A stretch of 64,000 nucleotides of DNA. Source: Gordonia humi (GTDB lineage: Bacteria; Actinomycetota; Actinomycetes; Mycobacteriales; Mycobacteriaceae). A program made the translations under genes and the position numbers. Below are positions 8,849 through 27,223 of the stretch, in pieces. Location of the stretch: positions 2,108,001 to 2,172,000 of the forward strand of contig NZ_JACIFP010000001.1 in NCBI RefSeq assembly GCF_014197435.1. Reading direction: 5' to 3'. The notes below the pieces were generated by a model, which was not told where the DNA came from, ran no database searches, and saw only the letters and a list, made by a program, of their open reading frames with translations. Each line of letters begins with the position of its first letter. The stretch's first letter is position 1.

Positions 8849-8878
8849 CACGGAAGTGGCCGCCGACTCCGTTCACGT

Positions 8879-10138
8879 TCAGCCCGCGGGGACGGTGCGC
8901 TCGCGCACGGTGGGGTCCGGCGATGTGGAGTCGGTGCGTCGGGACGGTCCAGGCCTCCGTGTGAGGGGCAGGAGCGCCCCCGCGCCGATGAGCGCGATCG
9001 CTCCCGACACGACGAGGAACCGCCAGTCGCCGAGCCAGGCGCCGACCAGCGGACTACTCGCGCGAGCTAAGGCGATCGGAACTGAGATGATCGCGAGAAC
9101 ACTGGCGAATCGAGCTATGCCGAAGGAGTCCGCGACGATCGACGGCCGGGCGATCACCCCGATGCCCTGACCCAAGCCGACAGCGGCCACACACAGCAGG
9201 GTCAACGGGATCGACAGACCTGCTAGGGGGAGCAGCAGCAACCCGGCGCCCTGGATCGCGAACGCGATCGCCGACGCCACCGTCATGGACAGAACCCGGA
9301 CGAACGCACTGATCATCAACCGGGACAAGACCTGGAGGACGCCGATCGCGATCGGGATCGACGTGGCCACCGCTTCGGAATGCCCGACGTCTCGCAGATA
9401 GGTGACGACCAATAGGAGAAACGCCGACACCGACGCGGCCTGAGCGACGAAGGCGACCAGTACCAGCCAGAAGTCGGTGCTGCGCACCGCGGCACCCACT
9501 GACGAACCCGGCCGATGCTGCACGCGCGCCCGGTGATCGTCCCCGCTCGGAAGCGCGAACAGATGCGCGGGCACCGACACCGAGAGCATGACCGCCGCCA
9601 GGACGATCAGTGTCGACCGCCAGCCGAGCGTCGCATTCAGCCACCCCATCAGCGGGTACACCGCGTAGGTGCCGAGCCCGGCGATCATCGTCACCGCGAG
9701 TATCGAGCGATCGCGATGTTCCACTGAGGTAGCGACGACGATGACCGCGAACGCGGCCTCGTACGTCGACATCACGATCGACATTCCGATCAGCACGAAA
9801 GCGCCGTAGACCACGGTGAGCGACGCGGCGTGCGACCACAGCAGCACTCCGACCGCTCCGATCACCGAGCCCGCAGTCATCAACGCACGTCCGCCGTGCC
9901 GATCGAGTGCGACTCCGACCGGAAATGCGGCGGCGGCTCCGACGAGTGTCGACACAGTCGATGCGCCGGCGACAGCGGTCCGCGACACCCCGAGTTCGTC
10001 GGCCATCGGATCAAGGACGACCGGAAGGATCTGAATCATGGCGATGAAGCCGATCATGCTCGTCAGCGAGAACGCTGCGACCAGGAGCTGCCGCGAGCCG
10101 GGTGTGCGCCAGGGGCGTGGTCGAAGCTGGGCGATCAT
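8879..10138 (-). CDS. MFS transporter
   Basis: 419 aa with about twelve hydrophobic segments. A DRHGGR motif between helices 2 and 3 (VGVALDRHGGRALM) is the MFS A-motif equivalent. The ATG overlaps the stop of the SsuD-like gene by ATGA and has the ribosome site AAAGG just upstream, so it is the last gene of the leftward arm. Substrate unknown; position suggests import of the compound handled by the neighbouring monooxygenases or export of a product. Confidence 0.85.
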   Translation of the reverse strand: MIAQLRPRPWRTPGSRQLLVAAFSLTSMIGFIAMIQILPVVLDPMADELGVSRTAVAGASTVSTLVGAAAAFPVGVALDRHGGRALMTAGSVIGAVGVLLWSHAASLTVVYGAFVLIGMSIVMSTYEAAFAVIVVATSVEHRDRSILAVTMIAGLGTYAVYPLMGWLNATLGWRSTLIVLAAVMLSVSVPAHLFALPSGDDHRARVQHRPGSSVGAAVRSTDFWLVLVAFVAQAASVSAFLLLVVTYLRDVGHSEAVATSIPIAIGVLQVLSRLMISAFVRVLSMTVASAIAFAIQGAGLLLLPLAGLSIPLTLLCVAAVGLGQGIGVIARPSIVADSFGIARFASVLAIISVPIALARASSPLVGAWLGDWRFLVVSGAIALIGAGALLPLTRRPGPSRRTDSTSPDPTVRERTVPAG

Positions 10139-11217
10139 CCTTTAAGGAGTGGTAGGAGATCCCGCCCCTGGCGTTCGATCTCTCGGCGATACGGGGTGTC
10201 GGACAGAACGAAATGAGAGATGCCCAGATCTTCGTATCGCTTGAGCGTCTTGGCGACCTCGGCCGCCGAGCCGACGATCCATGTGCTGCCCGCACCGCCG
10301 CCACCGACCCGGGCCGGTGCGGTGTACAGATTGTCGTCCAGTACGTCGCCGCGCGCCGAGAGATCGTACAGCCGCTGTTGCCCGACGGCGCGTCTGCGGT
10401 GCGGGTTGTCCCCGACCCGTGCCGGTCGGTCGGAGCGGGCGGCGTTCTCGGCCATCGCCGCGACCCGCGCCTGTGCATCGGCCCAGGCCTGCTCGGACGT
10501 GTCCCGTACGACAGTGGTGACGCGAAGACCGAACTCGAGCGGCGGTAGATCACGGCACTGGGTCGCCTCCAAAGACTTGAGCCGATCGATGCGTTCGGCG
10601 ACATCGTCGAGCGGTTCTCCCCAGAACAGCTGAACGTCGGCCTGCTGTGCAGCGACCTTCTCCGCAGCTGCGGACGCGCCGCCGAAATAGATGGTCGGGT
10701 GCACTCGATCACCACGCTGTTCGATGCGGGGCACCACCGTGGAGTTCTCGACCTCGAAATGTTCGCCGCGGTATGTCACGTCCTCCTGCGTCCACAGCTT
10801 CCTGGTCAGCTCGATGAACTCGCGGGTCCGGTCGTATCGGTCCGCCTGGGCCGCGTCGGCGTCACCGTATGCGGCGAGATCGTCCTTGCCCGAGACGATG
10901 TTGATGCGCAGTCGTCCGCCGCTGAGGTGGTCGAGGGTGGCGGCGGCCGATGCGAAGTTGGCCGGCCGCCAGTATCCCGGGCGGATCGCGACCAGCGGTT
11001 GGAATGTCGTCGTCCGTGCGGCGAGCGATGCGGCGACCGTGAACGTGTCGGGTCGCCCCCAACCGGTGCCGATGAGTGCGCCGGACCAGCCATGGTCTTC
11101 AAGCGCGACGGCATGGGCGGAGAGGGCTTCGAGGCTGTTGTGGTCGCCGACGGCGTCGTCGCCGCGATGGCCGGGGCTGACCTCGTTGGGGATGTACCAG
11201 AGGAACTGTGAACTCAT
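10135..11217 (-). CDS. SsuD-like FMNH2-dependent monooxygenase (LLM class)
   Basis: 360 aa. It aligns by eye along its length with alkanesulfonate monooxygenase SsuD: FLWYIPNE start, ALIGTGWGRPDTFTVAAS, FQPLVAIRPGYWRPANFASAAATLDHLSGGRLRINIVSGKD, YFGGASAAAEKVAAQQADVQLFWGEP, VGQQRLYDLSARG and the end segment LGISHFVLSDTPY. SsuD uses reduced FMN and O2 to release sulfite from alkanesulfonates. It needs a separate flavin reductase, and none lies in the window. The gene lies 32 bp after the ACAD-fold gene and is coupled to the MFS gene. Substrate remains inference. Confidence 0.85.
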   Translation of the reverse strand: MSSQFLWYIPNEVSPGHRGDDAVGDHNSLEALSAHAVALEDHGWSGALIGTGWGRPDTFTVAASLAARTTTFQPLVAIRPGYWRPANFASAAATLDHLSGGRLRINIVSGKDDLAAYGDADAAQADRYDRTREFIELTRKLWTQEDVTYRGEHFEVENSTVVPRIEQRGDRVHPTIYFGGASAAAEKVAAQQADVQLFWGEPLDDVAERIDRLKSLEATQCRDLPPLEFGLRVTTVVRDTSEQAWADAQARVAAMAENAARSDRPARVGDNPHRRRAVGQQRLYDLSARGDVLDDNLYTAPARVGGGGAGSTWIVGSAAEVAKTLKRYEDLGISHFVLSDTPYRREIERQGRDLLPLLKG

Positions 11218-11249
11218 CGGTGAGTCTCCGATCGTGGGGCGGGAAGGGG

Positions 11250-12350: not shown

Positions 12351-12538
12351 CTGGCAACGTCCTTTCCTCACGCTGCACGTGAGACATGGGAGGGGTGACG
12401 AGGGGAGCCGACCGAGTACCGCCGAACGCACCGGACGGATGGGGGTCGGCACGCCTATGCGGACGACTCGGCGAGCCTGACGTCGAAAGCTACTCGGACG
12501 ACTCGACCGCGCGCGACCGTTTTGTGCGTCGTGAATCC

Positions 12539-12566
12539 AAATCGAGAGTAAGACTCTGTGCGATTT
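12539..12566. promoter_or_regulatory. Stem-loop or operator dyad in the cluster leader
   Basis: Nested inverted repeats: the outer arms AAATCG/CGATTT enclose inner arms AGAGT/ACTCT with an AAG loop and a 3-nt bulge on the right side. It could be an RNA hairpin in the rightward leader or a protein-binding dyad controlling either arm. It lies in a locally AT-rich stretch, as promoters and operators often do here. Confidence 0.4.
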
Positions 12567-12699
12567 GAAGGAGGGCGGCGGCCTAGGGCTGCGGATAGTG
12601 TTCGACTTCAGTGGAAATCTGTTGGTCCGGCAGACCGAATCGGGTCATTCGCCCCTGAAGGACACGATTCCACCGGCAGTGAAGTCTGTCTCCGAATTG

Positions 12700-12725
12700 C
12701 CGGCGAGAACGCTGATTCTCGTCGG
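12700..12725 (+). promoter_or_regulatory. 10-bp leader hairpin overlapping the leader-ORF ribosome site
   Basis: CCGGCGAGAA (12700-12709) pairs with TTCTCGTCGG (12716-12725) around a 6-nt loop, ten pairs with one G-T wobble. The right arm ends inside the GGAGG ribosome site (12724-12728) of the small frame that follows, so folding would partly mask it. There is no U-tract, so it is not a standard terminator. A role in controlling translation of the leader frame and the importer gene is inference. Confidence 0.45.
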
Positions 12726-12736
12726 AGGAAACGTCT

Positions 12737-12790
12737 ATGAACCCGGTGGGAAATCTGGTTCCCGGAGATTATTCGTATGTGTGCATGTGA
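12737..12790 (+). CDS. Candidate 17-aa leader peptide upstream of the ABC importer
   Basis: ATG at 12737 follows GGAGG with 8-nt spacing and opens a frame encoding MNPVGNLVPGDYSYVCM, ending in TGA at 12790. The last two sense codons are Cys and Met. The TGA overlaps the AAAGGA ribosome site of the binding-protein gene, whose GTG starts 12 nt later, so a ribosome finishing the leader would sit on that site. Cys-rich leader frames controlling sulfur genes by translational coupling are known in mycobacteria, but those have several consecutive Cys codons; this has one. A chance frame cannot be excluded. Confidence 0.35.
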   Translation: MNPVGNLVPGDYSYVCM

Positions 12791-12802
12791 AAGGACACGA
12801 TC

Positions 12803-14437
12803 GTGATATCGAACGCCTGGAAGAATGGCGCTGCACTCGTTGTGGCCGGTAGTGTCATCGCGGCGCTGGCCGGGTGCGGCCAACGCCTGGACTCGAATGA
12901 CGGTGGCACGCCCACGTACGGCGGTGCTCTCACCTTTTACGATCCCGTGCAGTACGACGCGTGGAAGCCGACGAACTCGCTGTGGTCGAACAGCCAGGTC
13001 GCCAACAACATCGCTGAGCGTCTGATCTGGCAAGACCCGAAGACCGGCGAATACAAGCCGTGGCTCGCCGAGTCCTGGACGACATCCGACGACGGACTCT
13101 CGTACACCTTCACCCTGAAGGACGGCGTGACTTTCAGCGACGGGACGCCACTCGATTCCGCAGTGGTCAAACGCAACTTCGACCAGCACGGAATAGGCGA
13201 CGAGAACCGAGGAATCACCAAGGATCCGTTCTGGCTGAATTACGCGGGCACGGACACTCCCGATGCGAAGACCGTTGTCGTGCGACTGACCGAGCCGAAT
13301 GCGGCGTTCCTTCAGCTCTTCTCGAACTATCGGGCGAGTTCCATTCTCGCCAATTCGTTCCTCGACCGCGACCTCAACGGACAGAGCGACCTCAAGAACT
13401 GGGTCGGCACCGGACCTTTCGTCGTGGATTCGGTGGACGGCACCAACGGAGTGACATTGACGCGTCGCGACGACTACGACTGGGCGCCCGGCGGGTCGAC
13501 GCACCAGGGCAAGGCGTACCTGGACAAGGTCGTGTTCAAAACGGTGGCCGAAGGTGGAACGCGCGTCGGTGCTCTGACGACGGGCGACGCGCAGATCGCT
13601 CGGAACATCGCGCCCTACGACGAGGAGACGGTCTCCGCGGGTGGAGGCGAGATTCTCGCGGTTCCAGTCCAAGGCGAGACCAACGATCTCACTGCGACCC
13701 TTAATGAGGACTCCCCGATTCGCGACAAGCAAGTGAGGCTCGCGCTGCAGGCTGCGACCGATCGCAAGGCGATCAACGAGACGGCGCTGTCACCGAGCTA
13801 TCCGATTCCGACGAGCGCGCTCGTCAAGGGCACTCCGTTGCGCGCCGACTCGAGCCGATTCCTCGGCTACGACCTGGACAAGGCCAAGGACCTGCTCGAT
13901 GAGGCGGGCTGGAAGGTCGGCTCCGACGGAATCCGTTCGAAGAACGGCCAACGACTCTCCCTCCCGCTGCGCGTCGCGCCGTACTACCAGGTGTCGCAGT
14001 CTGTGCTCGAGGTGCTGCAGTCGCAGTGGCGGAAGGCCGGGGTCGAGATCACGCTCACCAGTCCCTCGCTCACCGAGTACGAGTCGCAGCTCGCGACAGG
14101 CAAGAACTGGTATCTGACGCAGGGACAGAACTCGACGGCTGAGCCGGGCGTCCTAGCGATCACCTACGGCTCTGACCAGCAGAATTCGTTGAAGAACCCG
14201 GTCCCGGATGCGAAACTCGACTCGCTGATCGCGGCGCAGGCCGCCGAGCGGGATCCGGCCGAGCGGAAGAGCCGGATCGCTGACCTCGAAACGTACATCT
14301 TCGAGCAGGGCTATTCGATTCCGTTGTACGACGAGACCCAGGTGTTCGCCCTGGCGCCGAGCGTTCACGGATTCGGTACCGAGTCGACCGCGCGCTCGTG
14401 GTTCTACGACACCTGGCTCACCTCGGGAGGCAACTGA
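12803..14437 (+). CDS. Family-5 (oligopeptide/nickel-type) ABC substrate-binding lipoprotein
   Basis: 544 aa, GTG start after AAAGGA. The lipobox ALAGC gives a lipid-anchored exported protein. The SBP_bac_5 pattern is clear: NIAERLIWQDPKTGEYKPWLAESWTTSDDGLSYTFTLKDGVTFSDGTPLDSAVVKRNF, then VGTGPFVVDS and a C-terminal half with DLDKAKDLLDEAGWK. It captures a solute for the two permeases and the ATPase that follow directly. The family binds peptides, opines, sugars, nickel complexes and other organics, so ligand identity must come from context: the downstream oxygenases point to an organosulfur or similar nutrient. Confidence 0.9.
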   Translation: MISNAWKNGAALVVAGSVIAALAGCGQRLDSNDGGTPTYGGALTFYDPVQYDAWKPTNSLWSNSQVANNIAERLIWQDPKTGEYKPWLAESWTTSDDGLSYTFTLKDGVTFSDGTPLDSAVVKRNFDQHGIGDENRGITKDPFWLNYAGTDTPDAKTVVVRLTEPNAAFLQLFSNYRASSILANSFLDRDLNGQSDLKNWVGTGPFVVDSVDGTNGVTLTRRDDYDWAPGGSTHQGKAYLDKVVFKTVAEGGTRVGALTTGDAQIARNIAPYDEETVSAGGGEILAVPVQGETNDLTATLNEDSPIRDKQVRLALQAATDRKAINETALSPSYPIPTSALVKGTPLRADSSRFLGYDLDKAKDLLDEAGWKVGSDGIRSKNGQRLSLPLRVAPYYQVSQSVLEVLQSQWRKAGVEITLTSPSLTEYESQLATGKNWYLTQGQNSTAEPGVLAITYGSDQQNSLKNPVPDAKLDSLIAAQAAERDPAERKSRIADLETYIFEQGYSIPLYDETQVFALAPSVHGFGTESTARSWFYDTWLTSGGN

Positions 14438-14438
14438 C

Positions 14439-15467
14439 ATGCGCGCCTACGTCCTACGGCGGGCGGCCGCCGCGATCCTCGTCCTCTTCGCCGCGTATAC
14501 CTTGTCGTTCGTTCTGCTCAGTGCGCTGCCCGGCGACGCGGTGACCAACAAGATCCAGAGTCCGGAGGCACAGATGTCGCCGGAGTCCGCGCGCGCACTG
14601 CTCGAGTACTACGGTCTGGATCGGCCGGTCGTCGAGCAGTACCTGCACGGCCTCGGCGCGTTGGCGCACGGTGATCTCGGCTTCTCGATCACCAACGGCC
14701 GTCCGGTGATCGACCTGATCGCCGAAGTGCTGCCGAGCACGGCGGCACTCGCCGGCGCGGCGCTGGTCGTCGGCATCGTCGTCGCCGCCGTCTTGGCTCT
14801 GCTCGGTGAGTACGCGTCGAGTCGTTGGATCCGCACGGCGGCCACCGCGGTGCCGGTACTGTTCGCCTCGGTCCCCACCTTCGTCGTAGGCATCGTCATC
14901 CTGCAGGTCTTCGCGTTCAAACTGTTCGTCATCCCGGCCGCCGACGACGGTACGTTCACCGCGCTCATCGCTCCGGCCGTGACCCTCGGCGTCTTCGTGT
15001 CCGCTCCCCTCGCGCAGGTGTTCGGCCGGTCGATCGAAGCGACGCGCAAGCAGGCGTTCGTGCACGTCCTCTACGCGCGCGGTGCGGCCGAACCGTACGT
15101 GTTCACTCATGGCGTGCTGCGCAATTCGTCGTTGCCGGTGTTGACGCTCCTCGGTCTCGCGGTCGGTGAGCTCATCGCGGGATCCGTCGTGACCGAAGCG
15201 ATCTTCGCTCGACCGGGCATCGGTCAGCTGACGGTGTCCGCGGTGAGCACTCAGGACCTGCCGGTGCTGCAGGGCGTCGTGCTGGTCGCGGCGGCCGCTT
15301 ACGTGTTGGTCAACCTCGTCGTCGATTTGGTGTACCCGGTCATCGACTCGCGGATCCTGATACCGACCTCCGCCGGAGTCTCCGCCGCATGGCGCGTACT
15401 GGCGCGACGTCCGACAGGTCGACGCACCTCAACGTCCGACCTCCCTGTCGAGGCGGTCATGCCGTGA
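14439..15467 (+). CDS. ABC transporter permease, DppB/OppB type
   Basis: 342 aa with an N-terminal membrane anchor, the family-typical periplasmic stretch (LEYYGLDRPVVEQYLHGLGALAHGDLGFSITNGRPV) and about six membrane segments. The coupling-helix motif toward the C-terminus reads FVHVLYARGAAEPYVFTHGVLRNSSLPVLTLLG. It starts one base after the binding-protein stop and overlaps the second permease by GTGA. A Ser/Thr-rich tail of about 30 residues extends beyond the usual end. Confidence 0.9.
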   Translation: MRAYVLRRAAAAILVLFAAYTLSFVLLSALPGDAVTNKIQSPEAQMSPESARALLEYYGLDRPVVEQYLHGLGALAHGDLGFSITNGRPVIDLIAEVLPSTAALAGAALVVGIVVAAVLALLGEYASSRWIRTAATAVPVLFASVPTFVVGIVILQVFAFKLFVIPAADDGTFTALIAPAVTLGVFVSAPLAQVFGRSIEATRKQAFVHVLYARGAAEPYVFTHGVLRNSSLPVLTLLGLAVGELIAGSVVTEAIFARPGIGQLTVSAVSTQDLPVLQGVVLVAAAAYVLVNLVVDLVYPVIDSRILIPTSAGVSAAWRVLARRPTGRRTSTSDLPVEAVMP

Positions 15468-16336
15468 CGATCTCCACCACGCACGGAGCCGCCACCGGCA
15501 GGCTCGCCGATATCGGGCGCCGGCTCCGCGGAAACTGGGCGTTCGCCCTAGCTTCGGCAGTCCTGCTGCTGGCGGTGGCGTGGGCGATCGCGCCCGGGCT
15601 GTTCACGGGTTACGACCCCCTCGGTGTCGACCAGAGCCAGCGCCTGCAGTCGCCGTCCGGCGCGCACTGGTTCGGCACCGACCTGCTGGGGCGCGACGTA
15701 TACGCCCGTACCGTGTACGGGGCCCGCGCGTCTCTCGCGGGAGCGGCGCTGGCGGTCGCCGTCGGTGTGGTGGTCGGGTCCGCGCTCGGCACCGTCGCCG
15801 GCTGGTTCGGCGGATTCGTCGACAACACGGTGATGCGCGCAATCGACGTCGTGCTGTCGATTCCGAGCTTCCTGCTGGCGATCGCGATCGTGGTCATCTA
15901 CACGGCGGGGACCGATGACGCGGGACTGGTACCCGCGGCCTTCGCGGTCGGTCTGACGTCGGCGGCGACTTTCGCCCGGCTGATCCGATCGGAGATCCTC
16001 AGCGTGCGCGTCAGCAGCTACGTGGAGGCAGCCGTCACCAGTGGAGCATCGACGTGGTCGATTCTGCGTCGGCACGTGATTCCCAACTCCATCGGTCCGA
16101 CCGCCGCCCTCGTCACGGTGCAGTTCGGAATCGCGATCATCTGGATCGCCTCGCTGAGCTTCCTCGGGCTCGGAGCTCAACCGCCAGACCCGGAATGGGG
16201 GCTGATGGTGTCCGACGGACGCAAGTACATCGCCACCCGCGAATGGCTGATCCTCTTCCCGGCGGTGACGATCTCAGTCGTCGTACTCGCCGCCAACCAG
16301 GTCTCTCGTCACTTTCAGAACCGGAGCACATCATGA
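15464..16336 (+). CDS. ABC transporter permease, DppC/OppC type
   Basis: 290 aa from the GTG at 15464, which overlaps the previous stop by four bases. It has the N-terminal OppC_N segment (YDPLGVDQSQRLQSPSGAHWFGTDLLGRDVYARTVYGARASL, a family hallmark), five to six membrane helices and the EAA-like loop YVEAAVTSGASTWSILRRHVIPNSIGP. It partners with the DppB-type permease. The stop overlaps the ATPase start by ATGA. Confidence 0.9.
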   Translation: MTISTTHGAATGRLADIGRRLRGNWAFALASAVLLLAVAWAIAPGLFTGYDPLGVDQSQRLQSPSGAHWFGTDLLGRDVYARTVYGARASLAGAALAVAVGVVVGSALGTVAGWFGGFVDNTVMRAIDVVLSIPSFLLAIAIVVIYTAGTDDAGLVPAAFAVGLTSAATFARLIRSEILSVRVSSYVEAAVTSGASTWSILRRHVIPNSIGPTAALVTVQFGIAIIWIASLSFLGLGAQPPDPEWGLMVSDGRKYIATREWLILFPAVTISVVVLAANQVSRHFQNRSTS

Positions 16337-19163: not shown

Positions 19164-19173
19164 GGACCGCGCC

Positions 19174-20412
19174 GTGAGAGATCGACTCCATCTCAACGTG
19201 AACATCCTCAACGCAGGCGTGTTCGGCGGATCGTGGCGGTTCCCCGGAACCGACCCGGTCGCCAGCTACGGCGTCGAGCATTACACCTCGATCGCCGCGA
19301 AAGCCGAAGCCGCCCGGCTGGACGCCGTCTTCCTCGCCGACGGCCCGGTGCTCGATCCGCACATCAGGCATCGGACCGGCAACAGCCTGGAGCCGAGCAC
19401 CGTCCTCGCACGGATCGCCGCGCAAACCGAGCACATCGGCCTCATCGGGACGTTGTCGTCGTCGTACAACGACCCCGACGAGATCGCCCGTCGTCTCGGC
19501 GACCTCGACTATGTGAGCGGCGGCCGTTTCGGCTGGAACGTGGTGACGACTGCGGGCGGGGCCGCTGCCGCCAACTTCGGTCGCGACGGCGAGCCGGATC
19601 ACGCACTGCGCTACCGACGGGCCGAGCACGTCGTCCGGTCGGTCGTCGCGCAATGGGCGACCCGCACCGAACTCGTGTCCCCGCAGGGGCGCCCGGTGGT
19701 GGTCCAGGCGGGTGGGTCCAGCGACGGGCGGCGTCTCGCCGCGCAGGTCGGAGAGGTCGTCTTCTCCGTGGACCAGAACGTCGCCGACGCCCGAGCCTTT
19801 CGGGCCGGACTGCGCGCCGGCGCTGCAGAGGCCGGACGCGACCCCGCTGACCTCGTCGTTCTTCCCGGTCTGTCCACCGTCATCGGTGGGACGGAAGCGG
19901 AAGCGGCGGCTCGCCGCGCGCTGCTGGACGAGCTTCTGCCCACACCGTATGCGCGTGCCCGGTTGGAGGGCCAGCTCGGGTTCCCTCTCGACGGACTCGA
20001 CGACGACCAGCCGATACCGCTCGCGTTGCTGCACGATCCGGATACGGCGGGTGGTTCGCAGTCGTTCTACCGCATTGTCCGAGACGTCATCATCGCGGAG
20101 CGACCGACGGTACGGCAACTGATCACCAGACTGTCCGGGGGCGGTGGACACCGCATCGTCGTCGGTACCCCCGAACAGATCGCGGACGACATCGAACTGT
20201 GGTTCCGGACCGGTGCCGCCGACGGCTTCAACGTGATGCCCGACGTGCTGCCGTCCGGATTCGACGATTTCGTGGAGCACGTGGTGCCCGAGTTGCAACG
20301 GCGCGACCTGTTCCGCACCGACTACGAGACCGATACCCTCCGCGGGCACCTCGGGCTCGGTCTTCCGTCGGTCCGCAAGGCGGACCCGGATCTGCTCGTG
20401 AGCGCGCGATAG
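19174..20412 (+). CDS. NtaA/SnaA/DszA-family LLM flavin monooxygenase with internal deletion
   Basis: 412 aa from the GTG at 19174, after TAAGGAC. Family segments are intact at the ends: HLNVNILNAGVFGGSWR, LDAVFLADGPVL, YVSGGRFGWNVVTTAGGAAAANFG, VQAGGSSDGR and a normal C-terminal third. At residues 158-172 the sequence passes from the helix preceding strand 5 straight to TELVSPQGRPVVVQAGGS, skipping about 45 residues that carry DRxTGxxADPSR...HRGxxFxVxGPL in the complete homologue at 25832-27223. The flavin-binding segments are kept. The missing part resembles one retained in the next gene. Confidence 0.85.
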   Translation: MRDRLHLNVNILNAGVFGGSWRFPGTDPVASYGVEHYTSIAAKAEAARLDAVFLADGPVLDPHIRHRTGNSLEPSTVLARIAAQTEHIGLIGTLSSSYNDPDEIARRLGDLDYVSGGRFGWNVVTTAGGAAAANFGRDGEPDHALRYRRAEHVVRSVVAQWATRTELVSPQGRPVVVQAGGSSDGRRLAAQVGEVVFSVDQNVADARAFRAGLRAGAAEAGRDPADLVVLPGLSTVIGGTEAEAAARRALLDELLPTPYARARLEGQLGFPLDGLDDDQPIPLALLHDPDTAGGSQSFYRIVRDVIIAERPTVRQLITRLSGGGGHRIVVGTPEQIADDIELWFRTGAADGFNVMPDVLPSGFDDFVEHVVPELQRRDLFRTDYETDTLRGHLGLGLPSVRKADPDLLVSAR

Positions 20413-20431
20413 CGCAGGGAATGGAGACCTC

Positions 20432-21370
20432 ATGACCGTATTCATCGAAGTATCGATCGGCTCGGCGCCGCACCAGGTGCCCTTCGCCCACGCGGAGTCC
20501 GTCGCCGCAGCGGCGGCCGCTGCCGGAGTCACGGGGCTGCGGCTGGTGGAAGGCGACGTGGGAAGTCCCACCGTCGACCCCAGCATCACCGCCGCCTATC
20601 TGGCCGTAGCCGAGCCGGTGCTCGCTTATCTGGTTGACGCGTCGACCAGTCATAATGCGCCCTACAACCTCGCCCGCCGGATCGGCTCACTCGACCGGGC
20701 CACCGGCGGACGAACCGGCCTCGTCCTGCGGCCAGGGGCGGGAGACGAGGTCAGTGACCCGGTGACACCGGATCCGGCCGCCGACACCGACGCGGCTCAG
20801 CGCTGGGGCGAGTACACCGACGTCCTCGCCCAATTATGGGACTCGTTCCCGGCGGACGCCCTCGTCGGCAACCAGACGGCCGGGGTCGTCGTCGACGACG
20901 AGCAACTCGTGCGCATCGACCACGAGGGCGCGCTCTACCGGGTGCGCGGGCCGCTCGACGGTCCGGGCTCCCCGCAGGGCAGACCGCCGTTGGTGACCGA
21001 CCGTCTCGACACGGTCGGAGCCGATGCCGTCGTCGCGCGTGCTGACGCGGTCATCATCGCCGTCGCCGATGTCGCTGACGCCCTGCCCGCACTGACCGAA
21101 GCGCTGTCGGCCGCCGCTCGTCCGCGCGAGACGCTCGCGATCTTGGCACGTGTCGGAGTGGACGAGTCGGCCGACAGGCTCGTCGCGTGGGCGGCCGATG
21201 CGGGCGTCGACGGCTTCGTCGTCGCCGACGCGGGCAACGTCGACGCGACGATCGGTGCCGTCCGCACCGTTGCCGCGGGTCTGGTGGGATCGGGAACGGG
21301 CACCCTGCGCGCGTCGCTAGGCCTGGCGCCGCGGTTGCGCGGCCTCGAGTCGGCGGCGGTTCTCGCATGA
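20432..21370 (+). CDS. Shortened LLM-fold protein lacking flavin-binding motifs (putative partner subunit)
   Basis: 312 aa, about 150 shorter than complete NtaA/DszA-type proteins. The family framework is recognisable: SHNAPYNLARRIGSLDRATGGR aligns with the SSTFNSPYNLARRFQALDHVTKGR region of the 25832 protein, and W136-P186 (LWDSFPADALVG...VRIDHEGALYRVRGPLDGPGSPQGRPP) aligns with the segment absent from its upstream neighbour. The strand motif NVVTT has become GLVLRPG, and the QAGGSxxG phosphate loop is gone. The C-terminal half is short and Ala-rich. I infer a non-catalytic partner, perhaps forming a heterodimer with the 19174 protein as in LuxA/LuxB. It overlaps the next gene by ATGA. Confidence 0.7.
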   Translation: MTVFIEVSIGSAPHQVPFAHAESVAAAAAAAGVTGLRLVEGDVGSPTVDPSITAAYLAVAEPVLAYLVDASTSHNAPYNLARRIGSLDRATGGRTGLVLRPGAGDEVSDPVTPDPAADTDAAQRWGEYTDVLAQLWDSFPADALVGNQTAGVVVDDEQLVRIDHEGALYRVRGPLDGPGSPQGRPPLVTDRLDTVGADAVVARADAVIIAVADVADALPALTEALSAAARPRETLAILARVGVDESADRLVAWAADAGVDGFVVADAGNVDATIGAVRTVAAGLVGSGTGTLRASLGLAPRLRGLESAAVLA

Positions 21371-22590
21371 CGATCTCCACTGCGGTCGACCTTCCGCACG
21401 GTGCTCGGCTCGACCGTCCGACCGTGGCCGGGATCCGCGCGGCGATCGCCCCGATCCTCGACCGGCTCGCCGCCACTGCGGGCGAGCGTGAGGAACGCCG
21501 TGACTACGCGTTCGACGAAGTTCGCGGACTCGCTGCCGCCGGACTGGGCGTCGTCGAGGTCCCGTCAGCCGACGGCGGTGCAGGAGGCACGGTCCGCGAC
21601 GTGGTGGACATCGTTGTCGCCGTGGCTCGGGCCGACTCGTCTGTCGCGCAAGCGCTTCGACCGACGTTCCTGACCGCGCATCAGATCGCGGAGAACCCGG
21701 CCGTTCCGTTTCGGGCCGAGAACGTCGAACGACTCTGCCGGGGTGCATTGTTCGTCGGCACCGGCAACGAGCGCAACGGCGGCGCGAGCGGCAGCGTGAG
21801 CACCACCGCCAGTCGGGTGGACGGCGGCTACCTGGTGAACGGTCGCAAGTTCTATTCGACGGGAGGGCTGTACGCCGACTACTTCTCGTCGCAGGCGGTC
21901 ACCGACGACGGCACGATCATCCGATTCACGATTCCCGTCGACCGTGCCGGGCTGGACCGGATCGACGACTTCGACGCCGTGGGGCAACGACTCACGCAGA
22001 GCGGCTCCACCAGTCTCGACGGGGTGCGCGTCCACGACCACGAAGTGTTCGTGCCGACCGACGAACGCCGAGACAACCCGTGGACCGGATCGTTCGCCCA
22101 GCTCTACCTAGCCGCCGTGCAGGCGGGCATCGCCGCAGCCGCGCTGGACGACGCCGTCGGCTTCGTGCGAGACCGCGCCCGGCCGATCAAACACAGTTCG
22201 GCGAGTCGGAGCGTCGACGACCCGTACGTCCGGGAGACCGTGGGCGAGATCGCGGCCCGTGCCCAGGCCGCGGCCGCCGTCGTCGGAGGGGCCGCCGACG
22301 CGGTGCACTCGGTGCGCGGGCTGACTGGTGCGGCGGCGAGAACGGCTGGAGCTCAGGCTGCGGTGCGCGTCGCCGGCGCGGCAGTCATCGCCATCGAGTC
22401 GGCGCTGCGCGCCGCGGAACTGCTCTTCGACGTCGGCGGCGGCTCGATCACCGACCGGGGCCTCGGATTCGACCGACACTGGCGGAACGCTCGCACCGCC
22501 GCCAACCACAACCCTCGGCAGTGGAAGACCGCGGTCGCCGGGGCCTACCACCTGACCGGTGAGGAACCTCCGACCACGGGTCTCTTCTGA
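21367..22590 (+). CDS. DszC/SfnC-like flavin monooxygenase, second copy
   Basis: 407 aa, ATG overlapping the preceding stop. ACAD fold with DszC-group signatures: VNGRKFYSTGGLYADYFSSQAV in the beta domain and GFDRHWRNARTAANHNPRQWKT near the end. An Ala-rich stretch (about residues 295-340) forms part of the helical bundle. It resembles the 18000-19163 protein in motif order but is not a recent duplicate, since the conserved blocks differ at many positions. Two such enzymes in one operon suggest two successive or alternative oxygenation steps. No catalytic Glu of the YGGTSE type is present. Confidence 0.85.
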   Translation: MTISTAVDLPHGARLDRPTVAGIRAAIAPILDRLAATAGEREERRDYAFDEVRGLAAAGLGVVEVPSADGGAGGTVRDVVDIVVAVARADSSVAQALRPTFLTAHQIAENPAVPFRAENVERLCRGALFVGTGNERNGGASGSVSTTASRVDGGYLVNGRKFYSTGGLYADYFSSQAVTDDGTIIRFTIPVDRAGLDRIDDFDAVGQRLTQSGSTSLDGVRVHDHEVFVPTDERRDNPWTGSFAQLYLAAVQAGIAAAALDDAVGFVRDRARPIKHSSASRSVDDPYVRETVGEIAARAQAAAAVVGGAADAVHSVRGLTGAAARTAGAQAAVRVAGAAVIAIESALRAAELLFDVGGGSITDRGLGFDRHWRNARTAANHNPRQWKTAVAGAYHLTGEEPPTTGLF

Positions 22591-22655
22591 CCACATGTGC
22601 CCTGGCCATCCAGAGCATCTAACCCCGGACACCCACAACCCTAAGGACAGTCTTC

Positions 22656-23678
22656 ATGACCATCGAGGCCGATCGAATCCTCGGACGCACCGGTGCGCGC
22701 ATCACTCCGCTCACCCTGGGCAGTATGAACTTCGGACGCTGGCAGGACGAGACGGAGAGCCTCCGGATCCTTGGCGCGGCGCTCGACGCGGGCATCAATG
22801 CCGTCGACACCGCCGACGTGTACGCACAAGGTGTCACCGAGCGAATCGTCGGCAAGGGGCTCAAGGGGCGTCGCGACGATGTCTTCCTGGCCACCAAGTT
22901 CCACGGCCAGATCGGCGAGAACCCGTCGCATGCAGGCAACTCACGACGGTGGATAACTCGCGCCGTCGACGACAGCCTGCGGCGCCTCGACACCGACTAC
23001 ATCGATCTGTATCAAGCGCATCGCCCCGACCCGGACACGGATCTGCTCGAAACTCTCCACACTTTGAACGACCTGATCCGGGCCGGAAAGATCCGGTACT
23101 ACGGGACATCGGTGTTTCCTGCGCACGAGCAGGTACGTGCGCACTGGCTCGCCGAACGGCACGGTCTGATCGCGCCGCACACCGAGCAACTGCCGTACTC
23201 GCTGTTGGTACGCGGCTCCGAACGGGAGGTGTTTCCGGTGGCTCAACGGTACGGCGTCGGCGTCATCTCCTATGGCCCGCTCGCGGCCGGCTGGCTGTCG
23301 GGCAAGTATCGGGTCGGCGGTGATCAGCCCGAGTCGGCCCGCGCCGAACTGATTCCGGGCCGGTTCGACGTCGCGGCGCCGGCCAACGCCAGGAAGTTGG
23401 CTGCGGCCGACGCCCTGGCCGTCGTCGCCGAGGACGCCGGTCTGAGTCTGATCGACCTCGCGGTCGCGTTCGCGTTGAACCATCCAGCGATCTCGAGCGT
23501 CATCATCGGGCCGCGCACCCACGGCCACCTCGACGCGTATCTGGCTGCGGCTCAGACCGTCCTCAGCGACGAGGTCCTCGACCGAATCGACGAGATCGTC
23601 GAGCCGGGCACACAATTCCATGATCGCGACACCGGACGCGACACTCCCTCCCTGCAACCGGCCGCCCTCCGTCGCTGA
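22656..23678 (+). CDS. Aldo/keto reductase
   Basis: 340 aa, ATG with TAAGGAC upstream. It is a TIM-barrel NAD(P)H oxidoreductase; the catalytic tetrad is visible as Asp in VDTADVY, Tyr in the same segment, Lys in LATKFHG and His in YQAHRPD. C-terminal IIGPRTHGHLDAY is the cofactor-binding end. It would reduce a carbonyl, for example an aldehyde released after C-S bond oxygenation (inference). It follows a 65-bp gap, the longest in the operon; a secondary promoter there is possible but not obvious. Confidence 0.9.
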   Translation: MTIEADRILGRTGARITPLTLGSMNFGRWQDETESLRILGAALDAGINAVDTADVYAQGVTERIVGKGLKGRRDDVFLATKFHGQIGENPSHAGNSRRWITRAVDDSLRRLDTDYIDLYQAHRPDPDTDLLETLHTLNDLIRAGKIRYYGTSVFPAHEQVRAHWLAERHGLIAPHTEQLPYSLLVRGSEREVFPVAQRYGVGVISYGPLAAGWLSGKYRVGGDQPESARAELIPGRFDVAAPANARKLAAADALAVVAEDAGLSLIDLAVAFALNHPAISSVIIGPRTHGHLDAYLAAAQTVLSDEVLDRIDEIVEPGTQFHDRDTGRDTPSLQPAALRR

Positions 23679-23713
23679 CCGGTGAGCCCACCCACGAAAG
23701 GCACCCGCATCCC

Positions 23714-24745
23714 ATGACCGCACGCATTGTCGACACCGTCTACTCGGCCGCCACCGACCGCTACGCGAAAGCGACGTTCCGACGCACCGGCGACTCCGGC
23801 CTCGACCTGCCATCGTTCTCCTTCGGCCTGTGGCAGAAATTCGGCGCGGACTACGCGTACGAGACGCAACGAGAGATCATCCTGCACGCCTTCGACCTCG
23901 GCATCACGCACTTCGACAACGCGGATCGCTACGGTCCGCCGCATCGGGCGGCCCAGATCAACTTCGGCCGCGTCCTCGCCGAGGACCTCGGCCGTTACCG
24001 CGACGAGATCGTGCTGTCGACGAAGGCGGGCAATCCGATCGGCGAGAGCCCGTATCTGAAGGGCGGTTCTCGCAAGGCCCTGCTCGGCTCGCTCGACCAC
24101 AGTCTGCGCGATCTCGGCACCGACTACGTCGACATCTTCTACCACCATCGCCCGGACGCGTCGACGCCGCTCGAAGAGACCGCGAGCGCGCTGGTGTCGG
24201 CAGTGGAGCAGGGCAAGGCGCTGTACGTCGGTGTCTCGAACTACCAGCCCGACCGCGCGCATGAGATCGCTCAGCTGCTGCGGACCGCGGGCGTTCCGTT
24301 GCTGATCCATCAGCCGCGCTACTCGATCTACGACCGCAGCATCGAGCGCAACGGCCTGCTGCAGCTCGCCCAGGACGACGGCTTCGGGCTCATCGTCTAC
24401 TCGCCGCTGGCCCAGGGACTGCTGACCGGAAAGTACCTCGAAGCGATCCCCGACGACGCGCGCGCTGTCAACAGCAGCTTCCTGAGCAGTGCGAACATCA
24501 CCGACGAGTATCGGCAGCGGACCGCCGAACTGAACAAGCTCGCCGAGTCCCGCGGCCAGTCGTTGGCGCAGCTCGCGCTGCAGTGGGTGCTCCGACAACC
24601 GACGGTCAGCTCGGCGCTTATCGGTGCGAGCTCGACCTGGCAGCTCGACCACAACGTCGCCGCGATCGACTTCCCGGATCTGACCGACGACGAGTTGGCG
24701 ATCATCGATGAGCACGGTGTGCACGGCACCGGATTGAATCTCTGA
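23714..24745 (+). CDS. Aldo/keto reductase, YghZ/Kv-beta-like
   Basis: 343 aa. Tetrad residues are visible: Asp and Tyr in FDNADRYGP, Lys in LSTKAGNPIGE, His in FYHHRPD. Segments such as RYSIYDRSIERNGLLQLAQDDGFGLIVYSPLAQGLLTGKYL match the YghZ (GpsA-type, aldehyde-reducing) and potassium-channel-beta-like branch of the superfamily. Sequence is clearly different from the preceding reductase, so the two probably act on different carbonyls. It ends one base before the next LLM gene. Confidence 0.9.
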   Translation: MTARIVDTVYSAATDRYAKATFRRTGDSGLDLPSFSFGLWQKFGADYAYETQREIILHAFDLGITHFDNADRYGPPHRAAQINFGRVLAEDLGRYRDEIVLSTKAGNPIGESPYLKGGSRKALLGSLDHSLRDLGTDYVDIFYHHRPDASTPLEETASALVSAVEQGKALYVGVSNYQPDRAHEIAQLLRTAGVPLLIHQPRYSIYDRSIERNGLLQLAQDDGFGLIVYSPLAQGLLTGKYLEAIPDDARAVNSSFLSSANITDEYRQRTAELNKLAESRGQSLAQLALQWVLRQPTVSSALIGASSTWQLDHNVAAIDFPDLTDDELAIIDEHGVHGTGLNL

Positions 24746-24746
24746 C

Positions 24747-25835
24747 ATGGAGGCACGCGCGGGGACACGGATCGGGGCGGGGGTGCCGGACGGACGGCCC
24801 TTCCGCCTCGGCTTCCTGCTGCACCTCGACGGGGACCTCGAACCAGCCGACGCGTACCGACAGGCCGTCGACCTGTTCGTGACTGCCGAGGAACTCGGCT
24901 ACGACTCCGGCTGGGTGATCCACCGGCACTTCCGACAAGGACGTGAACACGTGTCGTCGCCGTTGGTTCTGCTGGCGGCGATCGCCGAACACACGTCGAG
25001 GATCCGGTTGGGCACCGGCGTCTACGTGCTGCCGCTCGATGATCCGTTGCGGGTCGCTGAAGACGCCGCCACGCTCGATGCACTCAGCGGCGGTCGGCTC
25101 GAACTGGGGGTCGGCTCGGGACCGTTCGCAGGAGCGTGGGAGGCGTTCGGACACGATCTCGGCGACCGTCATCGGCTGTTCGACGCATCGGTCGGCCGTC
25201 TCCGAGAAGTCCTCGACGGCACTGTGTTGAACTCTCGCGGAGAAGCACTGCACCCGCCCGGAGCGGGTGTACGGAGTCGCCTCTGGCAGGCGACGACGAG
25301 CGATCGGGCCATTGCGCTGGATGCGGCGCGCGGCGTCGCCCGCGGCGGTGACGGGCTCCAACTGTCCCGAGCGAATGCTCAGCGGGGCGGAACCGTGACA
25401 CAGGCGCAGGAGCATCAGGCGCGGATCGTCGACGCCTATCTGGGAGCCTGGACGGATCCGGAGAAATCGCCGCGTGTCCAGATCTCGCGCGCGGTGTACC
25501 CGCACCCCGACCGTGCCGCGGCCGTCCGGGAGGTGACGCCCGGCATCCGCCGCTGGCAGAGTTGGAGCACACACGACGATGCGAAGCGCACCGTCGGCGT
25601 CGAGGAGTATCTGGCTGCCGATCGGGCGCTGATCGGGCCGAGCGAACAGATCGCGGGGGAACTGCTCGCCGATCCGGCGCTGGCACAGATGACCGACCTG
25701 CTCGTCAGTTTCGTTCCGGGTGTTCCGGCTTTCGACGAGCATCGGCGACTGCTCGCCGACACTGCCGCCGAGCTGTCCCCGTTGCTGGGGTGGCGACCGA
25801 GCCGGCGGTCGACTCAGATCGGAGCACACCGATGA
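24747..25835 (+). CDS. LLM-class flavin-dependent oxidoreductase
   Basis: 362 aa, a luciferase-like TIM barrel of a different branch from the NtaA/DszA group. Characteristic segments: RLGFLLHLDGD, TAEELGYDSGWVIHRHF, LAAIAEHTSRIRLGTGVYVLPLDDPLRVAEDAATLDALSGGRLELGVGSG. Members use reduced FMN or F420. The region around residues 170-200 (LWQATTSDRAIALDAARGVARGGDGLQLSR) replaces the usual GG-S/T phosphate loop with a divergent sequence, so cofactor choice is uncertain. Coupled to the last gene by ATGA. Confidence 0.85.
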   Translation: MEARAGTRIGAGVPDGRPFRLGFLLHLDGDLEPADAYRQAVDLFVTAEELGYDSGWVIHRHFRQGREHVSSPLVLLAAIAEHTSRIRLGTGVYVLPLDDPLRVAEDAATLDALSGGRLELGVGSGPFAGAWEAFGHDLGDRHRLFDASVGRLREVLDGTVLNSRGEALHPPGAGVRSRLWQATTSDRAIALDAARGVARGGDGLQLSRANAQRGGTVTQAQEHQARIVDAYLGAWTDPEKSPRVQISRAVYPHPDRAAAVREVTPGIRRWQSWSTHDDAKRTVGVEEYLAADRALIGPSEQIAGELLADPALAQMTDLLVSFVPGVPAFDEHRRLLADTAAELSPLLGWRPSRRSTQIGAHR

Positions 25836-27223
25836 CCCGGTTCCACCTCAACCTGTCGTTAATGACACCCGGGCACTTCCGACATGCGTGGCGGCTGTCG
25901 CACGCCGATCCGCTCGCCTATCTCGACGTCGACCACTTCGTCCGGCTGGCTCGCCTCGCCGAGGACGCGAAGGTCGACGCGGTGTTCCTCGGCGATGCGC
26001 CGGCACTGCGCGGCGAGATCGCATCGGCCCCCGGTACCGGTATCGATCCGCTGATTCTGCTCGGGCACATCGCGGCGGTGACCCAGAACCTGGGTGTGAT
26101 CATCACGAGTTCCAGCACGTTCAACTCGCCGTACAACCTGGCGCGGCGCTTTCAAGCTCTCGATCACGTGACGAAGGGGCGTGCCGCAGTCAACGTGGTG
26201 ACGACCGCTGCGACAGCTGCTGCCGCCAACTTCGGACTCGACGAACATCCCGACCGTGCCACTCGGTACCGCCGGGCGTGGGAGTTCCTCGATGTGGTGA
26301 CCCGGCTGTGGGACGGGTGGGCGCCCGATTGGCTGGTCGCCGACCGAGAGACGGGCGAGTACGCTGATCCGTCCCGGATCACCCCGATCGATCACCGGGG
26401 CGAGTTCTTCGCCGTCGCCGGGCCGCTGCCTGTTCCGGCGGGGCCGCAGGGTCGTCCGGTGCTGGTACAGGCGGGTGGTTCTGAGGGCGGTCTGCGGCTG
26501 GCGGGCGATTTCGCCGACGTCGTGTTCACCGTCGCGCAGACCCGCGAGGACGCCGTGGCCTTCCGGAATGAGATCCGAAGCCGTGCCGCAGCGGCTGAGC
26601 GCCGACCCGACGACGTCAAGGTGTCGTTGGGCGTCGTCGTGCTCGTCGGAGAGGATGAGAGGGATGCCGCCCGGCGACTCGATGAACTCGCGGCGACGCT
26701 GCCGATGGGACGGCTTGCCGCCGAGATGGTGCGCAACCTCGGTCTGTCCGTCGAACAGTTCGGTCCGGACGTTCCGATACGTGCGGCCGACCTACCAGAC
26801 GATGTACCGGAATCGGCGTTCTCCGCAGGATTCGGCCGCGCGGTACGTGCGTTGATCGCGCAGGAGCCGAGGACACCGCGGCAACTCGTCATCGGCAGTG
26901 CCGGAGGTTCGGGGCATCGTCTGGTCGTCGGATCACCGGAGAGGGTCGCCGCCGACCTCGCGGACTGGTTCGCCGCAGGCGCCGCAGACGGCTTCACGAT
27001 CATGCCGGCCGACGTCGCGGTGGATCTCGAGAACTTCACTCGGCTGGTTGTTCCGATCCTGCAGCGGCGCGGGATCTTTCAGAGCGAATACTCGGCGCCG
27101 ACCCTCCGCGCGCGGCTGTTCGGCACGTCCTCGGACACCGACCACGAGCACGATGACGTGGTGTCGTGGGCTCCCGTCGGTGAAGTCGACTCGGCGGTAG
27201 TCGAAGGTCTGCGCCTGGGGTGA
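25832..27223 (+). CDS. NtaA/SnaA/DszA-family LLM flavin monooxygenase, full length
   Basis: 463 aa with every family segment: FHLNLSLMTPGHFRHAWR, VDAVFLGDAPAL, SSSTFNSPYNLARRF, AAVNVVTTAATAAAANFG, the middle module DRETGEYADPSR...HRGEFFAVAGPL, VQAGGSEGG and the C-terminal GSGHRLVVGSPERVAADLADWFAAGAADGF. Relatives oxygenate nitrilotriacetate, pristinamycin IIB precursor, or dibenzothiophene sulfone, with FMNH2 from a reductase. It is the last gene of the rightward arm and gives the internal yardstick showing what the 19174 and 20432 proteins have lost. Confidence 0.88.
   Translation: MTRFHLNLSLMTPGHFRHAWRLSHADPLAYLDVDHFVRLARLAEDAKVDAVFLGDAPALRGEIASAPGTGIDPLILLGHIAAVTQNLGVIITSSSTFNSPYNLARRFQALDHVTKGRAAVNVVTTAATAAAANFGLDEHPDRATRYRRAWEFLDVVTRLWDGWAPDWLVADRETGEYADPSRITPIDHRGEFFAVAGPLPVPAGPQGRPVLVQAGGSEGGLRLAGDFADVVFTVAQTREDAVAFRNEIRSRAAAAERRPDDVKVSLGVVVLVGEDERDAARRLDELAATLPMGRLAAEMVRNLGLSVEQFGPDVPIRAADLPDDVPESAFSAGFGRAVRALIAQEPRTPRQLVIGSAGGSGHRLVVGSPERVAADLADWFAAGAADGFTIMPADVAVDLENFTRLVVPILQRRGIFQSEYSAPTLRARLFGTSSDTDHEHDDVVSWAPVGEVDSAVVEGLRLG

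Follow-up and report, generated by a model that had tools for sequence, protein, structure and literature searches.

The question raised by a 64,000-nt stretch of the Gordonia humi genome (contig NZ_JACIFP010000001.1; hereafter the window) is what the products of a 15-gene cluster within it import and oxidise. The cluster consists of three leftward genes (8879-12350) and 12 rightward genes (12803-27223) and combines an ABC importer with flavoproteins of the luciferase-like monooxygenase (LLM) and acyl-CoA dehydrogenase (ACAD) folds and with aldo-keto reductases (AKRs); gene names are those of Table 1. We consider it likely that this is a putative sulfur-scavenging operon for sulfate limitation, because the depletion of cysteine (Cys) and methionine (Met) in its proteins is conserved in their orthologs and because sulfur-metabolism genes join the cluster in some relatives. 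A first-pass annotation of the same DNA had proposed either organosulfur or organonitrogen compounds as the substrate; of these, sulfur is well supported by the depletion and the partners, and nitrogen scavenging is unlikely. Much soil sulfur is organic, and little is known about which organosulfur compounds bacteria draw on. The conserved core of several enzymes, found with either of two importers in several orders of actinobacteria, offers a testable route to a substrate, and is a case in which Cys/Met depletion ties a pathway to sulfur from sequence alone.

What speaks most strongly for sulfur rather than nitrogen is the Cys/Met depletion. Gene calls by our own script gave 59 genes in the window: the 15 cluster genes, 42 further genes with products of 100 aa or longer that served for comparison, and two more (67 and 53 aa, no Cys or Met) that were left out of the comparison. 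Counted after the start codon, Cys+Met was below 0.9% in 14 of the 15 cluster proteins and in none of the 42 others (minimum 1.13%; Fisher p 2e-12), with means of 0.59% and 2.78%, respectively. With the major facilitator superfamily (MFS) transporter set aside, Cys and Met account for 24 of the 5462 residues of the cluster proteins and for 401 of 13857 in the 42 others; LLM2 and AKR2 have none after the start, ACADx has 0.82%, and the substrate-binding protein (SBP), permeases and ATPase have 0.18-0.72%. Controls within the same genome were family matches, comprising the top 30 of 43 for LLM, the top 30 of 62 for ACAD, 7 of 12 for AKR after five short matches were dropped, and 5 of 5 for SBP. 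Among the matches measured, 28 other LLM proteins averaged 2.49% against 0.81 and 0.67% in the cluster; by the same control measure the 28 other ACAD proteins averaged 3.23% against 1.03 and 0.26%, five other AKRs 1.82% against 0.30 and 0%, and four other SBPs 1.69% against 0%. Low Cys/Met could also reflect selection against oxidation by flavin peroxides, in a cluster serving carbon catabolism or the detoxification of an unrelated compound. Peroxide can escape from flavin monooxygenases, and AKRs often serve in detoxification, but the SBP, permeases and ATPase are depleted too, and most of the other LLM and ACAD proteins measured in the genome are not; we regard this explanation as very improbable.

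The depletion attributed here to sulfur scavenging extends to relatives. From a search of 84,980 species genomes with DszC2 as query, the best 80 of 91 relatives were taken, giving 42 actinobacterial loci (L130-L170, L206) and 38 proteobacterial ones, with flanks of up to 10 kb that were often cut by contig ends. Under ortholog identity thresholds of our own setting, orthologs in the 42 actinobacterial loci had a mean Cys+Met of 0.29% (356 proteins of at least 150 aa, the four MFS proteins excluded) against 2.06% for 188 unmatched neighbours, and 96.9% of the orthologs were below 1%; excluded from both groups were 114 genes with sub-threshold cluster matches (mean 0.68%) and 58 genes shorter than 150 aa. 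According to an excerpt of work on Gordonia NB4-1Y, sulfur amino acids make up 0.88-1.33% of the oxygenases whose expression is higher on organic sulfur sources, and 3.01% of the proteome (PMC7661421).

Partners of the core in some relatives point the same way. In Cellulomonas chitinilytica (L170) an O-acetylhomoserine/O-acetylserine sulfhydrylase with 0.2% Cys+Met lies between LLM2 and DszC2, and in Nocardia miyunensis (L159) a TauD-family protein without Cys or Met adjoins the core. A nitroreductase-family protein (mean Cys+Met 0.4%) stands beside the core in 5 of the 42 loci, with PF00881 in two of the five, those scanned, and would presumably reduce flavin mononucleotide (FMN). The same evidence bears on organonitrogen or metal-chelate scavenging, as by the nitrilotriacetate (NTA) and ethylenediaminetetraacetate (EDTA) monooxygenases with a chelate importer. 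In EDTA degraders, EmoA goes together with an importer of the Opp type; in the window NtaA1 and NtaA2 both exceed the cut-off of TIGR03860, similarity to EmoA is found, and the SBP is a NikA-like binding protein. However, the conserved Cys/Met depletion, the sulfur-metabolism partners and the presence of DszC/MsuC-type flavoproteins argue against a nitrogen or chelate substrate, for which we see little probability.

Genome-wide conservation of the gene order had been suggested as a check of the cluster, and the core does recur in actinobacterial loci, but the system is patchily distributed and occurs with two importers. The enzyme core (NtaA1, LLM2, DszC2, AKR1, AKR2, KPN-LLM and NtaA2) is represented by at least three of its seven genes in 40 of the 42 loci, by at least five in 30 and by all seven in 15. 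Among the individual core genes, NtaA1 was found in 35 loci, LLM2 in 36, AKR2 in 34, AKR1 in 28, NtaA2 in 27 and KPN-LLM in 25; the SsuD-like gene was found in 22, DszC1 in 21, ACADx in 20 and MFS in 4. None of the 38 proteobacterial loci reached the thresholds for any of the 15 cluster genes. DszC2 relatives there (L171-L205, L207-L209; 45-51%) often lie behind an Opp-type importer, without the actinobacterial core. Within the genus, three other genomes of 59 have NtaA1 orthologs (75-78% identity) and a fourth has a 47% relative; SBP at 69-70% occurs in two others, and some SBP match (E up to 1e-60) in 11 of the 59, the remaining ones at 33-36%. Across the phylum, DszC2 at E up to 1e-110 was found in the own genome only, of 396, with four candidates scored per listed genome and misses therefore possible. 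Of 547 plasmid records with DszC2 relatives, the 30 that were listed named no dsz gene.

The importer of type A, orthologous to that of the window, was present at 18 of the 42 loci, all 18 with DszC1, and an importer of type B, of the same superfamily with SBPs 32-37% identical, at 18 loci, none with DszC1; the six loci with no SBP within the stretch included three with DszC1. In one Gordonia genome, G078, the enzyme core and left arm are present, the locus lacks both importer A and DszC1, and a type B importer is oriented convergently with the core. On a DszC2 tree (44 rows, made by a quick method, with 7 of 41 inner branches starred and many weakly supported), importer type requires four changes and type A is confined to a Mycobacteriales clade. 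Because of the 18/18 versus 0/18 pairing, the G078 locus and this tree, importer A and DszC1 seem to be gained and lost jointly, as a unit beside a core that is more stable. In Nocardia alba (L168), type B importer genes (SBP and two permeases) are positioned divergently beside a type A importer and core. The MFS matches of G078 (L048:759-2255) fall in three separate open frames and the gene looks broken; SsuD-like and ACADx match there over nearly full length. An NMT1/THI5-like binding protein (L152:17050-18162) has relatives in 4 of the 42 loci (L143, L149, L152 and L163), with a mean Cys+Met of 1.6%.

Which reactions the enzymes carry out may be approached through their nearest characterised families. 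Profile searches of the LLM proteins, also suggested at first pass, placed NtaA1 (375.8 bits) and NtaA2 (433 bits) above the cut-off of TIGR03860 (NtaA/DmoA, 279.7); LLM2 fell below it (106.5 bits), as did KPN-LLM for TIGR04027 (218.2 bits, cut-off 412.9) and the SsuD-like protein for the SsuD model considered below. Against solved structures, NtaA2 was nearly tied among NtaA (236.4 bits), YtnJ/CmoJ (234.8) and DszA (232.7), with EmoA about equally near, and its assignment to one characterised reaction was rejected since these scores are too close. The best solved matches of DszC1 and DszC2 were TdsC, DszC, MsuC and one unassigned monooxygenase; their scores were 119.1 and 148.8 bits for the DszC model NF043015 (cut-off 850) and 262.8 and 269.4 bits for the SfnB model TIGR04022 (cut-off 430.9), respectively. 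AKR1 scored 159.8 bits against PRK10625 (cut-off 415) and AKR2 369.8 bits against PRK09912 (cut-off 448). The fold of ACADx was judged from Pfam and secondary structure; its AlphaFold2 model, built from 13 sequences, has a mean predicted local distance difference test score of 88. It is possible, though doubtful, that these enzymes are paralogs that serve, with a dedicated importer, the salvage or desulfurisation of a known substrate class, namely S-alkylcysteine conjugates as with CmoO/CmoJ, dibenzothiophene-type thioethers or dialkyl sulfones. This would fit the position of NtaA2, as near YtnJ/CmoJ and DszA as NtaA, and that of DszC1 and DszC2 nearest DszC, TdsC and MsuC, and an excerpt of PMC10863075 names CmoJ, DszA and YxeK as homologues that cut C-S bonds. 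It would fit less well with the missed DszC and SfnB cut-offs, the lack of DszB among the 15 genes and the location elsewhere in the genome of SfnG and SfnB genes that do exceed their cut-offs, and seven enzyme genes would be more than those routes need.

The four LLM genes annotated at first pass are all present, and two of them may encode one enzyme. The best solved match of NtaA1 was chain B of 7e36 (226.0 bits, YtnJ being nearly equal at 225.2) and that of LLM2 was chain A (104.4 bits, the next at 72.6). This structure is the NtfO1-NtfO2 heterodimer, in which, as far as an excerpt of its description goes, the FMN subunit NtfO2 is without a side loop that NtfO1 has and NtfO1 is without the lid (PMC8027225); the residues T133, H151 and Y155 of that source align to chain B. 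In our alignments, NtaA1 is without a segment present in LLM2, and LLM2 is without a C-terminal part. The HxxRY of the FMN site is kept in NtaA1, LLM2 has A and W there, and NtaA2 has Arg for His. By our reading, the segment missing from NtaA1 would correspond to the side loop. Because the best matches are the two chains of one structure and the loop and HxxRY patterns are complementary, NtaA1 and LLM2 may form one heterodimeric enzyme, so that the four LLM genes would make three enzymes.

The SsuD-like protein of the first-pass annotation holds as an LLM family member; its sulfonate role is doubtful, because it scores far below the SsuD model (TIGR03565, 224.4 bits, cut-off 518.2) and the key arginine does not align. 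In the protein and 22 orthologs (n = 23), W196 and R226 are kept in 23 of 23 and an A299-equivalent in 22; C54 and H228 are replaced in all 23, whereas Y331 and H333 are replaced in 22 and fall on a gap in the remaining sequence. We take C54, Y331 and H333 to matter in SsuD. In all 23 the column of R297 (MsuD R296) is a gap; a few residues ahead of it, within a loop that is shorter, stands a basic residue (Arg in 14, Lys in 9) that might replace R297. The sulfonate motif of MsuD comprises W195, R225, R296 and A/S299, and in the excerpted account alanine at the R296, R225 or W195 positions left no measurable sulfite formation, and changes to the SsuD residues matching H10 and H227 had little effect (PMC8234197).

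If the cluster scavenges sulfur, the Opp/Nik-type ABC importer would take up a hydrophilic organosulfur compound, and one or more of the DszC/MsuC-type flavoproteins would oxygenate its sulfur. The NtaA/DszA/CmoJ-type LLM monooxygenases (an NtaA1-LLM2 heterodimer, NtaA2 and KPN-LLM) would then cut C-S bonds using reduced FMN (FMNH2) and O2, yielding an oxidised sulfur product and aldehydes; the AKRs would reduce the aldehydes, and the released sulfur would pass to cysteine/homocysteine synthesis. We infer expression under sulfur limitation, as we do the substrate, the reaction order, the heterodimer and the AKR role. FMNH2 would be supplied in trans, plausibly by a flavin reductase (PF01613, Flavin_Reduct; no Cys or Met after the start) of a sulfur cluster elsewhere in the same genome (L212:13449-13961 = G000:C1:3238448-3238960). 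This reductase lies behind SfnG, DszC-like, SfnB and SsuD-like genes (L212:8575-13961), for which SfnG scored 606 bits (cut-off 383), SfnB 431.5 (cut-off 430.9) and the SsuD-like LLM protein 417 (cut-off 518). In Acinetobacter baylyi, one reductase (MsuE) is reported in an excerpt to power many such monooxygenases (PMC13352529).

Several observations weigh against a sulfur role. The MFS transporter is the only cluster protein with normal Cys+Met (2.8-2.9%). Outside the cluster, 5 of 28 LLM, 3 of 28 ACAD and 1 of 4 SBP controls of the own genome are also below 1.1%; of these nine among 65 controls, eight sit in sulfur-poor groups (L056, L061, L113 and L115 in L212; L058 and L080 in L213; L120 in L214; L095 in L215), and the ninth, L068 (1.06%), is without explanation. 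In the relatives' loci, 21.3% of unmatched genes are below 1% as well, and six of ten extra genes scanned there, which were chosen mainly because of low Cys/Met, show no obvious connection with sulfur (SDR, enoyl-CoA hydratase, alpha/beta hydrolase, cation efflux protein, ROK and LysR regulator). Family scans of the 15 genes gave no DszB-like desulfinase (no search for it was made elsewhere in the genome), and since the SsuD-like site is also doubtful, the final sulfur-release step is not accounted for within the cluster. A CmoJ-like LLM protein or the separate sulfur groups of the genome could complete this step; CmoJ is described in an excerpt as releasing sulfenic acid (PMC10863075). Finally, no shared inverted repeat or sulfur-responsive operator stood out in the divergent region, and no expression data for this cluster were found.

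The sulfur-poor groups elsewhere in the genome have contents of their own. That of L212 extends over 8575-14374 (G000:C1:3233574-3239373) and includes a 138-aa protein without a Pfam match. The run at L213:864-11895, mostly sulfur-poor, includes four LLM-type genes together with those for an ABC ATPase and a binding protein of family 3. At L214:7111-10433 an alpha/beta hydrolase lies between two ACAD-fold proteins, and none of the three contains Cys or Met beyond the start residue. At L215:2200-10964 a second Opp-type importer (SBP_bac_5, permease, double ATPase) is positioned beside sulfatase-family and TauD-family proteins, all below 0.8% Cys+Met.

Upstream of the SBP gene, the open reading frame (ORF) of the candidate leader peptide noted at first pass is present; its conservation in 18 type-A relatives is absent. 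A cysteine attenuator at MCACERTRS was considered and rejected: none of the 18 type-A relatives has a short ORF with at least two Cys near the SBP start, the background being 50 of 520 other gene starts. Of the two Gordonia relatives inspected, L028 is without a short Cys ORF and L030 has a different one (-19 to +56) that is not RTGA-coupled. For mycobacteria, an excerpt of PMC4633059 reports short ORFs rich in Cys as well as short ORFs with RTGA coupling. No riboswitch or other known RNA in 8000-28500 matched Rfam at E up to 1. The commonest shared word, GAAAGGAC, occurs in 9 of 21 divergent-region sequences (one genome being present twice, as L028 and L142) and, in the two sequences inspected (those of the window and L030), coincides with the ribosome-binding region of the SBP gene.

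The layout is largely as first annotated. Gene calls, together with Pfam and NCBIfam scans of the 15 cluster proteins by which families were assigned, bore out the 15 genes, their families and the arrangement of three leftward and 12 rightward genes, the latter over 14.4 kb (Table 1). Tight junctions number seven of 11 in the rightward run (five overlaps of 4 bp and two gaps of 1 bp), not six. The local lack of a flavin reductase or regulator was confirmed in that neither family matched among the 15 proteins. The closest neighbours that were scanned, namely enolase, DUF501 and Ppx/GppA to the left of the cluster and DUF4395 and RecQ to its right, are unrelated, and the cluster therefore ends at 8879 and 27223, as had been noted; three flanking ORFs (two right, one left) without gene-caller support had no family match when scanned. 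The MFS gene probably starts at 10138, giving a 4-bp overlap with the SsuD-like gene, and the equivalent start was called in two of four relatives (L148, L168).

Table 1. Features of the cluster and their positions in the window.
Feature	Position	Strand	Remark
MFS transporter (PF07690)	8879..10138	-	419 aa from ATG 10138, or 392 aa from 10057
SsuD-like LLM protein, 360 aa	10135..11217	-	
ACADx, divergent ACAD-fold protein, 366 aa	11250..12350	-	
Divergent intergenic region, 452 bp	12351..12802	.	
Candidate leader peptide MCACERTRS	12777..12806	+	GTGA-coupled to SBP gene
Substrate-binding protein SBP_bac_5, importer type A	12803..14437	+	nearest NCBIfam TIGR04028
Permease B, Opp/Nik-type	14439..15467	+	
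Permease C, Opp/Nik-type	15464..16336	+	
ATPase, two ABC domains	16333..18003	+	
DszC1, DszC/MsuC/SfnB-type flavoprotein	18000..19163	+	
NtaA1, NtaA/DmoA-family LLM	19198..20412	+	
LLM2, short LLM partner	20432..21370	+	
DszC2, DszC/SfnB-type flavoprotein, core marker	21367..22590	+	
AKR1, aldo-keto reductase	22656..23678	+	nearest PRK10625 and Kv_beta
AKR2, aldo-keto reductase	23714..24745	+	nearest PRK09912
KPN-LLM, LLM protein	24747..25835	+	nearest TIGR04027
NtaA2, NtaA/DmoA-family LLM	25832..27223	+	

The combination of genes had not been recognised as a described system, and no description of this cluster was found in the literature searched (open-licence papers); it is very probably sulfur-related, and would represent flavin-dependent organosulfur scavenging in a variant not described in that literature. 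The evidence is evenly balanced as to whether this amounts to a route of organosulfur assimilation that has not been described before and differs from the Ssu, Sfn/Msu, Dsz and Cmo systems. In that reading, a C-S monooxygenase made of two different LLM chains would act on a soil thioether or sulfone-type metabolite together with two more LLM enzymes, as many as three flavoproteins of the ACAD fold and a divergent enzyme of the SsuD fold, and the core would have changed importers in evolution. Like the dsz (4S) operon, the cluster has DszC-type and NtaA/DszA-type flavin monooxygenases and, as we read it, a role in sulfur limitation; unlike that operon it is without DszB, lies far below the DszC model, and has an ABC importer, AKRs and extra LLM proteins. 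CmoO/CmoJ and YxeK operons have acetyl-transfer and deacetylase genes. The window cluster shares with this alkylcysteine salvage an NtaA-family LLM of the kind that cuts C-S bonds, NtaA2 being about equally close to CmoJ/YtnJ, but it has an Opp/Nik-type importer and neither of those accessory genes among its 15. The dimethylsulfone-sulfonate route (sfn/msu, with SfnG, MsuC and MsuD/SsuD) is similar in its ACAD-fold S-oxygenases and LLM proteins and in that one reductase could serve in trans; it differs in that the window proteins miss the SfnB and SsuD cut-offs and the SfnG/SfnB group of this genome is separate (L212). Closest in its family pairing is KPN_01854-KPN_01858 (TIGR04028 SBP, TIGR04027 LLM), both families occurring in one cluster here, and in genome G038 a TIGR04027 member over cut-off (518 bits) lies behind the same importer type. 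Both window proteins are nevertheless below the curated cut-offs (389.5 bits for the SBP against TIGR04028, cut-off 468.5), with 36-37% identity to the G038 proteins; no assigned function for the pair was found in the literature searched, and an excerpt of PMC7194016 reports KPN_01858 as higher in iron-limited Klebsiella. The NtfO1-NtfO2 and StmO1-StmO2 hydroxylases (7E36) act in antibiotic biosynthesis, and the lead of NtaA1 over YtnJ is only 0.8 bits; the putative NtaA1-LLM2 complex resembles them in that an FMN subunit of 404-421 aa is paired with a partner of 312-324 aa.

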